A program made the position numbers and the translations under genes. Below are positions 6,718 to 9,954 of a DNA stretch of 15,350 nucleotides, in pieces (within the stretch, counting starts at the first letter, position 1; each line of letters opens with the position of its first letter). The DNA lies in NCBI GenBank assembly GCA_009777365.1, contig WRLZ01000005.1:1-15350 (forward strand), written 5' to 3'. This DNA comes from Candidatus Saccharimonadota bacterium (GTDB lineage: Bacteria; Patescibacteriota; Saccharimonadia; Saccharimonadales; Saccharimonadaceae). A model generated the notes under the pieces. The model had not been told where the DNA came from. It saw only the letters and a program-made list of their open reading frames with translations, and made no database searches.

Positions 6718-6791
6718 TTCCCCTGCAGGGGAATATTTTATAAGATAAAATATTCCCCTGCAGGGGAATATTTTATAAGATAAAATATTCC
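6718..6791 (+). repeat. 35-bp tandem direct repeat (2.1 copies) with nested palindromes in the leader
   Basis: The unit starts at 6720 and repeats exactly at 6755, with a partial third copy to 6791. Each unit contains the palindrome cccctgcagggg and the stem aatatttta / taaaatatt around the loop taaga. Across the two copies this makes a perfect 23-bp hairpin (6718-6740 with 6746-6768). The second copy can instead form an 11-bp hairpin (6765-6775 with 6781-6791), which competes for the same bases. It ends 24 bases before the Shine-Dalgarno. Confidence 0.9.
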
Positions 6792-6829: not shown

Positions 6830-7732
6830 ATGGACCTTTTTGCACACGTAACTACCACATACCAAGCCTTTCGTGAGGCAAATGTTAGCCACACAGATTC
6901 AATCTGCTTACTCAGGGAGCACGCAGCCAAGCTTTGCCTTACCGACACCATCCGTTGCAAGCTTGTACCCACACCTGAAAGCAACCTAGTGAAATGCGGC
7001 CGAATCTACAGCCATTTCACCAACGGCGGCTACATGCGATTCCCCATAGAATGCCTAAAAGACGGGGATTTCACCCCAGAAGGTATCTGTGGCGGCGGGG
7101 AAAAATACACCCCATCTATCGCCGACGGTCCTACCAATTTCGGAAGTTTTATCGAAAACAACTACGAAATGTTCAAAAGTGACGACAAGACCTGGGGACT
7201 TTGTACCCAAGTACATCTGTATCAAGATGTTGCCACGGACAAAGTTTTCCAACGCATGACTGCAAACTTCGGCGAAGTCGAATCTGGCAGCGTTTTAATC
7301 CACGGCAGGTTTGAGGCGACTAACAAAAAAGTCACCTACAAGCTTTCCGGGAAAGAAACCGACGGCGCAACATTTCGCAACAATATTGCCAACGCCAACA
7401 CATTGTTTCACAATTTCCTTGTCAAACAACTGGCAACAAAGCACAACGTGAGCAAAGAAGAGATCGAGGAAGTCATCCAGGCTACCCACGATTCCTTCGA
7501 CAGGTACTATGATAGCCAAATGGCGGAAACGTCAAAAGGCTACCTTAAGCCAAATCCACTCTGGTTCACCGATGAAACCGACCCCGAACTGGAGCGCATA
7601 ACAGCCGAGCTCATCGAGACCGGCTTCTGCACCACCAAGGAGCAGCTTACCGAGTTCTGGACTTTGCTTTCAAGCGAAGCCACCTTTGCCTGCGACGTAT
7701 TGCTTAATGAGATAGTCTTTTCCCAATCGTAA
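6830..7732 (+). CDS. Uncharacterised 300-residue soluble protein, strongly expressed monocistronic gene
   Basis: I do not recognise this protein. It has no signal peptide and no membrane segment. The N-terminal third has five Cys before residue 75 (around CLLREHAAKLCL, IRCKL, VKCG, IECL), followed by a Gly-rich turn ICGGGEKY and aromatic-rich stretches such as NFGSFIENNYEMF. A middle part (about residues 145-180) alternates hydrophobic and polar residues like beta strands. The C-terminal half is mostly helical and charged (VSKEEIEEVIQATHDSF, DPELERITAELIETGF). It stands alone between a near-consensus promoter with an elaborate leader and its own terminator. That signal set suggests an abundant or tightly switched cytoplasmic product. 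No catalytic motif is evident. That it is a real gene is well supported; function is open. Confidence 0.85.
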   Translation: MDLFAHVTTTYQAFREANVSHTDSICLLREHAAKLCLTDTIRCKLVPTPESNLVKCGRIYSHFTNGGYMRFPIECLKDGDFTPEGICGGGEKYTPSIADGPTNFGSFIENNYEMFKSDDKTWGLCTQVHLYQDVATDKVFQRMTANFGEVESGSVLIHGRFEATNKKVTYKLSGKETDGATFRNNIANANTLFHNFLVKQLATKHNVSKEEIEEVIQATHDSFDRYYDSQMAETSKGYLKPNPLWFTDETDPELERITAELIETGFCTTKEQLTEFWTLLSSEATFACDVLLNEIVFSQS

Positions 7733-7797: not shown

Positions 7798-9954
7798 TTA
7801 CAACAAATTAAACGGATCCAAATCCACCGACCAATTCGCCATATGGAGATCAACTTTCGCCAAAATATCCAACAACTCCTGCCGCCTCGCAGACTTTATC
7901 ACAATCTGCCACCTATACTTCCCACCCATATACTCATAAAACGCCGGCGCTGGCCCAAAAATCTTCACTCCAGGATAAAGCCTCCGCACCTCCAGCGCCG
8001 TCTTTGAACAATTTTTTATCGCCGCCCCCTCAGTCTTGTACGAACACACTAGCTTGAGCAGATGAGAGAAGGGCGGGAAAAAATCTCTCTTCCGCTCCTT
8101 CAGCGTCAAACTCGCCAACCCCTCATAATCCTGCTGGGTCGCCATCTTCACAATCGGATTCTCTGGCTGATACGTCTGGATCACCACCTCCGCCTTCGAG
8201 GTATGCCCCCGCCCAACCCGCCCAATCACCTGACTGAGCAGCTCAAACACCCTCTCATTACTCATATAATCCGGCATCGTCAGCCCACTGTCCGCCTGCA
8301 AAATCCCCACAGTAGTCAAATTCGGCAAATCAAACCCCTTAGCAATAGATTGCGTCCCAATTATTATCCCATACTCCCCACTCTTCACCTGATCATACAG
8401 CTTATTCATAGTCTGATCTGCCGCCGTATCAGAATCAAACCTCGCAATCTTCTCATCTCTAAATATCTTCTTCAATTCCTCCTCAACAGTCTTCGTTCCA
8501 AACCCTTTATAAACTATCTTCGGCGACTTACAATCTGGGCAATTCTTAAGCGCCTCATCTTTCCACCCACACAAGTGGCATATCACCTTAAACTTATCAT
8601 GGTGCAAAGTAAGCGGCATCCGACACATCGGACAAAGCGCCTGATACCCACACTCCTCGCAAGCAATCATATTCGAGCTCCCCCGCCTGTTATGAAAAAT
8701 CAAAGACTGCTGCCCATTCTTCAGCCCCTCCCTAATAGACTTCAGCAGTGCATCACTTATGAACCGATGTTGGCTAAACAATTCCTTATTCTTCATATCA
8801 ACAGTCGTAATCTTTACATCAGTCTTAGTTTCAATAGCTTTGGTCTTGAGAGCGATTATAGCGTCCTTCTGCCTCGCAATAGCATAATCACTAACCAACG
8901 GCGTCGCAGTGCCTAGAATCGTCTTAAACCCGCCCATAGCGGCCATTTGCGATGCCAGCCGCACCGCGTTATACTTCGGCGTCTTGTCCTGCCGATAACT
9001 CGGCTCATGCGCCTCATCAATCACTATCAGCCCCAATTTCGCCACAGGAGCAAAAAGCGCCGACCTCGGCCCCACGATAATGAGCGGCTCATCTGACAGC
9101 AACACCCTCTGCCAAATATCCCGCCGCTCCGCCGGCGTCTGCTTCGAATGAATCTCCACCACCCGCTCCCCAAAAACCTCCCGAAACTTATCATTCAACT
9201 GACTCGACAAAGCAATCTCCGGCACAAGCACAACCGCACTCTCGCCTTTCTCCAATGTTCTCCTACACAGCTCCAAATAAATATTCGTCTTCCCCGACCC
9301 AGTCACCCCATGAAGAAGCAAAGTACTCCCCTCGAATTGTTCAAATTTTCGAGTAACCTCTTTCTGATCTTTATTCAATGGGATAATAAAGTCATCAACC
9401 GAAGTCGGTGCAAGGGACTCAGAACGACATCCCGGAAGGCGGCAGCCTGAGGGCGAAGCATGCCCGCCCCGTGGCGACGGGCGCGGGCAATGCTGTTCGT
9501 TCTGAGTCCCTTGCACCGACTTCACCGAAGCTTTCTTCCTCACCACACTCTCCGGAACCATAGACTGCACAATCAAAGGCACAGGTGAAAAATAATACTC
9601 CCCCATCCACCTTATCGCCCGAACCAAATGCTCCGGCAACCTCCTAGGAAATATCTGTAGAGCAATTTCTTTACAAGGGAAACTCGGCTTCCGCACCTTT
9701 TTCAATACCACCCCAAGCGCCATCTGCTTCCCAACCTCCACCGAAACAATCGACCCCACCCCAATCTCCTCATCAGTAGTCATATACGTCAAAAAATCCT
9801 GCCCGCTCATCACGATCCGATTCACCCCCACCAGGAAATATTTTGCTTTATTGGGTAACGACCAAGAGGATAAAACTCCACCCTTTTGGGCGGTACCCGC
9901 CGTAGGCGGGGTCAGGGCTTGCCCTGAAGTTTTATCCTCTTGATTTTCTCCCAT
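7798..9954 (-). CDS. priA: Primosomal replication-restart helicase PriA, with two in-frame repeat insertions
   Basis: PriA is a 3'-5' superfamily 2 helicase that reloads the replisome at stalled forks. The product has 718 residues. The N-terminal DNA-binding domain starts at about residue 36 (KAKYFLVGVNRIV). The helicase core has Walker A GVTGSGKT at 216-223, the DEAH box at 313-316 (VIDEAHEPSYRQ) and GTATP at 348-352. The eight zinc-binding Cys lie at 432, 435, 441, 444, 460, 463, 472 and 475, all present, followed by GFGTKTVEEEL and QVIGRVGRG. Oddly, residues 5-31 and about 144-185 are encoded by palindromic repeat DNA. The second insertion lies in the linker between the DNA-binding and helicase domains and is rich in Cys, Pro, Ser and Arg. 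The frame stays open through both, so the protein is probably functional. The gene follows the CPBP protease gene by 28 bases and has only a weak AGGA just before its ATG. Confidence 0.94.
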   Translation of the reverse strand: MGENQEDKTSGQALTPPTAGTAQKGGVLSSWSLPNKAKYFLVGVNRIVMSGQDFLTYMTTDEEIGVGSIVSVEVGKQMALGVVLKKVRKPSFPCKEIALQIFPRRLPEHLVRAIRWMGEYYFSPVPLIVQSMVPESVVRKKASVKSVQGTQNEQHCPRPSPRGGHASPSGCRLPGCRSESLAPTSVDDFIIPLNKDQKEVTRKFEQFEGSTLLLHGVTGSGKTNIYLELCRRTLEKGESAVVLVPEIALSSQLNDKFREVFGERVVEIHSKQTPAERRDIWQRVLLSDEPLIIVGPRSALFAPVAKLGLIVIDEAHEPSYRQDKTPKYNAVRLASQMAAMGGFKTILGTATPLVSDYAIARQKDAIIALKTKAIETKTDVKITTVDMKNKELFSQHRFISDALLKSIREGLKNGQQSLIFHNRRGSSNMIACEECGYQALCPMCRMPLTLHHDKFKVICHLCGWKDEALKNCPDCKSPKIVYKGFGTKTVEEELKKIFRDEKIARFDSDTAADQTMNKLYDQVKSGEYGIIIGTQSIAKGFDLPNLTTVGILQADSGLTMPDYMSNERVFELLSQVIGRVGRGHTSKAEVVIQTYQPENPIVKMATQQDYEGLASLTLKERKRDFFPPFSHLLKLVCSYKTEGAAIKNCSKTALEVRRLYPGVKIFGPAPAFYEYMGGKYRWQIVIKSARRQELLDILAKVDLHMANWSVDLDPFNLL
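9401..9523. repeat. 123-bp palindromic element inserted in frame in priA
   Basis: Perfect 27-bp inverted arms (9401-9427 and 9497-9523; outer end gaagtcggtgcaaggg) enclose a 69-bp GC-rich core with smaller stems (cccgt/acggg and gcccg/cgggc). The length is exactly 41 codons. The bases accgaag occur at 9398-9404 and again at 9524-9530, 126 bases (42 codons) apart, as a target-site duplication would. It encodes PriA residues about 144-185. Confidence 0.85.
9863..9942. repeat. 80-bp palindromic element at the start of priA
   Basis: Perfect 15-bp inverted arms, caagaggataaaact (9863-9877) and agttttatcctcttg (9928-9942), enclose a core with two tight hairpins: cccgcc/ggcggg (9896-9910) and cagggc/gccctg (9913-9926). 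It encodes PriA residues 5-31 (starting EDKTSGQALTPP after Q5), ahead of where the family normally begins. Confidence 0.8.

Follow-up and report, generated by a model that had tools for sequence, protein, structure and literature searches.

How does a perfect palindrome come to lie in frame inside the gene of a helicase, and do its arms belong to an inserted element or to the host gene? The question is raised by priA, the gene of the primosomal helicase, in a Candidatus Saccharimonadota bacterium. In the window, by which we mean the whole stretch of 15,350 nucleotides that was analysed, priA occupies positions 7798..9954 of the minus strand. It is an open reading frame (ORF) of 718 amino acids (AA) in which Pfam recognizes PriA_3primeBD, DEAD, Helicase_C and PriA_C. 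A segment of 123 nt, composed of a core and mirrored flanks, was delimited at 9401..9523 on the same strand by repeat search, by its fold and by comparison with the priA genes of relatives.

The palindromic segment of priA

A preliminary description of this DNA proposed that perfect 27-bp inverted arms enclose a GC-rich core, that the whole amounts to 41 codons in frame, and that it lies in the linker between the DNA-binding and helicase domains. All of this proved correct. The repeat search places the arms at 9401-9427 and 9497-9523, 27 nt long, 100% complementary and 69 nt apart. The 123 nt are in the priA ORF, starting at a third codon position (residues ~144-185), between PriA_3primeBD (residues 54-134) and DEAD (195-352) by Pfam. 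In gene sense, the upstream arm (9497..9523, minus strand) holds the codons for KSVQGTQNE and has a length that fits the host linker of a relative, and the repeat search identifies the downstream arm (9401..9427, minus strand) as its perfect reverse complement. The 69-nt core between them (9428..9496, minus strand), a member of a repeated family, is oriented like the gene and has a GC content of 74%, versus 50% for priA. It is a double hairpin: P2 (9458..9493, minus strand) is defined by a covarying helix and by the position of the search pattern, with the apex CCCGTCGCCACGGG at 9468-9481, and P3 (9433..9451, minus strand, CTC-AGGC-TGCC-GCCT-TCCG) is defined by a covarying helix. Folded as RNA, positions 9390-9534 of the minus strand reach a predicted -93 kcal/mol (z = -9.7), and none of 200 shuffles was as good. 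At 1776 random positions of copy-bearing loci, arm scores for the same geometry have a median of 7 and reach 12 at the 99th percentile, so that 27 perfect pairs in priA exclude a chance origin of such arms.

The segment was expected to be missing from close relatives, and it is. The same-genus priA (L005) is without it, with a net difference of 96 nt, i.e. 69 + 27, the core plus one arm. priA frames were recovered from 23 of the 30 loci fetched, own included; 21 of the 22 relatives are plain by eye, and the linker of the remaining one, G029, holds a different insert. From an LPxG anchor to the Walker motif, the window's priA has 82 residues, G029 has 83, and all 18 relatives with the anchor have 48-53; the other four of the 22 comprise three genes in which the pattern caught another anchor, and G029 with the insert just mentioned. 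The window's priA is therefore longer than the 18 relatives by 29-34 residues (87-102 nt), about a core and one arm, which is less than the 123-nt segment and contradicts the precise insertion of 42 codons that had been proposed. Judging from linker length, the 123 nt would include host sequence amounting to roughly one arm. The heptamer accgaag, described as repeated at both borders, is indeed present at 9398 and 9524, 126 nt apart, but an insertion of 126 nt is contradicted by the length of the linker, and neither this length nor a survey of direct repeats (see below) supports accgaag as a 7-bp target-site duplication. The different insert of G029 (L010) measures about 30 residues, and its presence at the same place marks the PriA linker as a tolerant site.

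A dispersed double-hairpin core

The repeated unit is not the 123-nt whole; what recurs is a core of ~70 nt, with arms that vary by locus. In the window's genome, whose completeness of 64% bounds any search for copies, the 123-nt segment occurs only once with these arms, but diverged copies of its core are found on C3, C53 and C9, the C53 core through a search with the whole segment, the C3 copy through the inserted peptide in the priA protein search, and the C9 copy through a covariance model. The apex motif CCCGTCGCYACGGG has 41 exact copies in 10 of the 151 genomes of the family, versus two matches of the reversed pattern in all 151. The covariance model R1, used with strict filters and a ceiling of 29 scored candidates per genome that make its counts lower bounds, has matches in at least 22 of these 151 genomes, with at least 29 in one of them. 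When one genome per species was searched with a pattern combining apex and second hairpin, at least 117 stretches were found. Among the 80 matches listed, 79 are titled Saccharibacteria or Nanosyncoccus (Nanosyncoccus alces is a member of the phylum Saccharimonadota), one is titled Nomurabacteria and matches G010, in the window's own family, and no title names Rickettsia. Viral carriage received no support from viral_contigs, where the strict pattern has no exact match. The 80 listed loci provide the 119 copies analysed below, and 37 further loci, presumably the remainder of the 117, are comparison sequences for the site and filled/empty comparisons. The insert in priA belongs to a family of short DNA modules that are dispersed in Saccharibacteria and have a GC-rich core of ~70 nt. 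An artefact, which had been a concern, is unlikely, since the core is found again in many separate MAGs. In the open-licence literature we found no description of palindromic, in-frame, inverted-repeat or miniature inverted-repeat elements of Saccharibacteria.

The core alignment (A1) contains 34 of the 41 copies, five having been dropped as nested, truncated, tandem or interrupted, and two more omitted. For 15 of the 22 core pairs, at least one of the 34 sequences has both sides changed with pairing kept. With the P2 register picked for best pairing and P3 counted only where its motif matched, the core helices have 616 + 438 Watson-Crick pairs versus 2 + 2 G-T, 5 A-C and 37 other pairs. The P2 apex seems invariant in A1 because the rows were picked by exact motif, and related copies differ there; the C9 copy of the window's own genome has ATCTGT..ACAGAT at this position. 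The openness of the cores in several frames is not a special adaptation: on average 4.7 of the six frames are open, versus 5.1 after shuffling at the same composition (79% GC), so that openness follows from GC content. In L003 (near 1500-1650), L073 (near 1337) and the Der gene of G002, cores are interrupted by extra hairpin sequence; G002 Der has two similar interruptions (GCGTCCCAAGGGGCGA), one in the P2 loop and one in P3. These interruptions are nested insertions into hairpin loops. L239 and L250 share a MnmA-like host site and carry a diverged core subfamily with the apex CCCGTCGTTACGGG and another P3 loop; judged by eye, their arms are also self-complementary.

Host genes and reading frames

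In 95 of the 119 copies the element lies in frame in an ORF that spans it, and both orientations and all six frames are used. This count rests on an ORF rule (minimum length 150 AA) and not on annotation. It gives no indication of gene targeting, as 80% of the copies and 78% of random positions (1231 of 1580) are genic by the same rule, and the closeness of the two rates means that there is no visible loss of genic copies. The hosts, named from their translations (Pfam was used for PriA only), include Der, LepA, UvrC, TatD, thioredoxin reductase, AlaRS, IleRS, MnmA, TrmD, UvrD/PcrA and an aminopeptidase. Pre-existing host hairpins seemed a possible target at UvrC, but none was seen by eye in empty LepA and Der. 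Two loci deserve a separate mention. In L034, with a copy from the window's own genome (G000 C3:11500-15000, core at C3:13134-13222), a frame that resembles LeuRS by eye is joined to a tail that resembles, again by eye, a phosphotransferase, possibly by recombination or by an assembly join at the repeated core. In L173, a UvrD-like site, an in-frame stop codon adjoins the element, reflecting either a sequencing error or a decaying gene.

Arms are specific to each locus

Arms were measured in 110 of the 119 copies, the other nine being without P3 motif or sufficient flank. They have a median aligned length of ~50 nt and a median identity of 0.76. In 106 of the 110 copies the own arms score above 99% of a control in which arms are exchanged between loci, and when the inner 10 nt are left out this is still the case for 102 of 110, with medians of 17 for own and 7 for swapped arms. 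Many copies share a short inner stretch of the arm (~TCGGG/CCCGA); the outer arms differ between loci and do not form terminal inverted repeats shared by the copies. Non-genic copies have arms as well (median score 23 for 21 copies, versus 21 for 89 genic copies), which indicates that arms are no by-product of coding. We conclude that the long arms derive from the host and not from the element, whether they are made by later switching or at the time of insertion, and for priA we favour the reading that the arms are host sequence mirrored on the two sides of the core.

The same host site in different genomes

A requirement for at least 50% identity of the flanking protein on both sides yielded 65 pairs of copies, which represent 19 host sites and 54 copies. 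All 65 pairs have better pairing between own arms (mean score 20.3) than between arms swapped across the two genomes (9.5). Upstream arms could be aligned in 15 of the 32 same-orientation pairs; there, 94 of the 128 changed columns are altered on both sides yet paired, a count that rests on local alignments and is thereby biased toward paired columns. By these two measures arms are homogenised between orthologous sites. The close pair L174/L212, in which none of four changed columns is compensated, fits slow decay between renewals. The core is present in both orientations at 11 of the 19 sites, and the flipped copies of a site would descend from one insertion. Total length differs by at most 6 nt in 18 of 33 flipped pairs, and by none in seven of them; it is equal in eight of the 32 same-orientation pairs, and differs by more than 6 nt in 32 of the 65 site pairs.

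Origin of the arms

Our preferred explanation, to which we assign a probability of about two in three, is that a mobile hairpin core comes to lie in frame in a gene, where template switching during replication then mirrors the flank and inverts the spacer; the insertion and the switching are both inferred. Template switching was chosen because the homogenisation of arms and the inversion of spacers are its known outcome in yeast. The core would enter a gene in frame and then serve as a fold-back point in single-stranded DNA, on the lagging strand or in a cruciform. There, the DNA polymerase would switch template and copy one flank onto the other, so that adjacent host codons become a palindrome, and intermolecular switching would also flip the core between its arms. 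Arms would decay by point mutations until fresh switches restore them; in this scheme the perfect 27-bp arms of priA would have been renewed recently. Survival would be limited to outcomes in tolerant linkers that leave the reading frame open. The 32 site pairs whose lengths are more than 6 nt apart speak against this scheme, as do the uncompensated columns of L174/L212.

The palindromes could also be made by insertion itself, if each core insertion duplicated the neighbouring host sequence in inverted form, for instance by snap-back synthesis at the insertion break, and if permissive loops were hit repeatedly across species; later conversion would then be unneeded. We give this explanation a smaller but real share of the probability, and several observations are in its favour. 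Copies are found in the Der linker and in the LepA loop in several species. Core similarity has no clear tie to the site, as it is 0.834 for the same orientation and 0.844 for flipped copies at one site versus 0.823 between sites (permutation p of 0.26 and 0.08, respectively, for same-site likeness), and as cores from different sites of one genome (0.857) are slightly more alike than cores from one site in different genomes (0.839), with 0.792 for unrelated pairs; these values are compatible with independent insertions that hit the same loops repeatedly. Finally, the net insertion fits core plus one arm in priA and in 13 of 34 filled/empty pairs. Against this explanation, the net insertion has a median of 84 nt, is at most 90 nt in 21 of the 34 pairs and is long enough for core plus two arms in four; filled or empty status was assigned by motif and length, and among the loci taken as empty some probably contain decayed copies (net 0, 3, 33 and 36 nt). 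Moreover, LepA is exactly 75 nt longer in the filled L212 than in the empty L126 and L127, with the 16 residues of the host loop preserved in spite of the long arms, which means that the arms of L212 were made from sequence already there and not added. Lastly, the pairs of equal length, seven flipped and eight in the same orientation, would need independent hits at about one nucleotide.

A conventional transposon, similar to Rickettsia palindromic elements (RPEs) or to MITEs and with arms that are its own terminal inverted repeats, is very unlikely. Copies are dispersed, short, palindromic and in frame in ORFs, and many have the inner arm, as such an element would; however, arms past the inner 10 nt are not common to the copies, and the swapped-arm control rules out a transposon with 27-bp ends of its own, leaving this explanation viable only for the core with the inner 5-8 nt. 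Direct repeats of at least 7 nt between the 70-nt flanks are not in excess (24 of 110 own versus 20% of swapped flanks), those of 2-6 nt being too short for this comparison to tell from chance. REP elements are linked to RAYT (Y1) transposases. The Y1 transposase domain (PF01797) is present in none of 13 carrier genomes tested, several of which are incomplete, versus two of 13 genomes without a match to the model, so that RAYT mobilisation was rejected.

The template-switching reading also has to be weighed against selection of the structure as RNA in the mRNA (as a regulatory hairpin, for translational bypass or for intron-like removal), an explanation suggested by the very stable predicted fold and by the conserved, covarying core helices but highly improbable: arm mismatches of genic copies comprise, in mRNA sense, 153 G-U, 156 A-C and 381 of other kinds, and this parity points to a DNA process and away from selection on an RNA hairpin; the core helices, which should be richer in G-U if selected as RNA, have nearly no G-T (four in P2 and P3 together, with five A-C), and the two mismatch counts together led us to reject a functional RNA as the reason for pairing; the use of both orientations and all six frames implies that no single RNA is made; the frames of genic copies are open, hence removal is not required; and the window has no Rfam match at gathering scores.

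Relation to known systems

The initial comparison with RPEs was apt as far as in-frame insertion is concerned and does not extend to the long arms. RPEs (Ogata 2000) are described, in the portions of two reports that we used, as short palindromic DNA tolerated by proteins and found in intergenic regions and in frame in conserved protein genes (PMC2229807, PMC6649704), 105-146 bp long and bounded by their own terminal inverted repeats (PMC2229807), and with a repeat identity that is lost over time (PMC6649704). In contrast, the long arms of the Saccharibacteria element are locus-specific and are self-complementary per species at shared sites, and its core is also found flipped. Coding palindromes are also known from the mitochondria of Nematomorpha, where inverted repeats with complementary arms occur in functional protein genes and template switching was proposed as one possible mechanism (PMC6649704, in part). 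Those arms, as far as the same portion of that report goes, are mitochondrial, nearly always perfect and up to 142 bp long, and both encode conserved protein; it describes no repeated mobile core, unlike what we propose for Saccharibacteria. In yeast genes, template switching between inverted repeats leads to arm homogenisation and spacer inversion (PMC8604942, in part). It acts there, according to the sections considered, on scattered inverted repeats and yields substitutions of 2-5 bp from inverted spacers, whereas in Saccharibacteria it would be tied to a dispersed element with strong hairpins and to an inverted spacer of ~70 nt. For RNA genes, mutation patterns consistent with template switching have likewise been reported as a source of hairpins and a means of their maintenance, with compensatory multi-base changes in stems (PMC8794818, in part). 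REP elements, which are small palindromic repeats of 20-40 bp described as extragenic (PMC3733652, in part), share with the Saccharibacteria element a small size, a palindromic structure and dispersion in bacteria, the latter being mostly inside ORFs. In the literature read, RPEs are the closest elements and template switching is the closest process, and we found no description of the two combined, with a core that flips and arms that are host-derived and locus-specific. In-frame palindromic inserts and template switching are known separately; our explanation unites them in a single repeated element of bacteria.

The element may thus rewrite the genes in which it lands. One tentative reading, which we state without favouring it, is that of a distinct class of selfish DNA without ends of its own, whose double-hairpin core makes replication rewrite the flanking codons repeatedly and in a locus-specific way while the core itself flips. 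In that reading it would be a palindrome that renews itself and that keeps on changing several residues at a time in the products of essential genes. Under our explanation the element would also make template switching in coding DNA measurable, by arm length, direction and tolerance by protein, in over a hundred natural copies, many of them at sites common to related species. In proteins of Saccharibacteria, unusual loops rich in Arg and Pro may be parasites at the DNA level, and clustered residue changes beside such loops are not necessarily adaptive.

Further palindromes in the window

A second palindrome is located in the N-terminal extension of priA, at 9863..9942 (minus strand). It has 15-bp perfect arms (9863-9877 and 9928-9942, CAAGAGGATAAAACT) around a different core of 50 nt with three predicted hairpins, and the priA ORF of the same genus begins beyond its position. 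One of its hairpins, CAGGGCNNGCCCTG, has no further exact match in the window's genome, at 64% completeness. Perhaps the same kind of process acted here with another core. Outside priA, overlapping palindromes are clustered at 6718-6791, in the gap before the ORF that starts at 6830, with 24-bp arms (TTCCCCTGCAGGGGAATATTTTAT) and a loop of 3.
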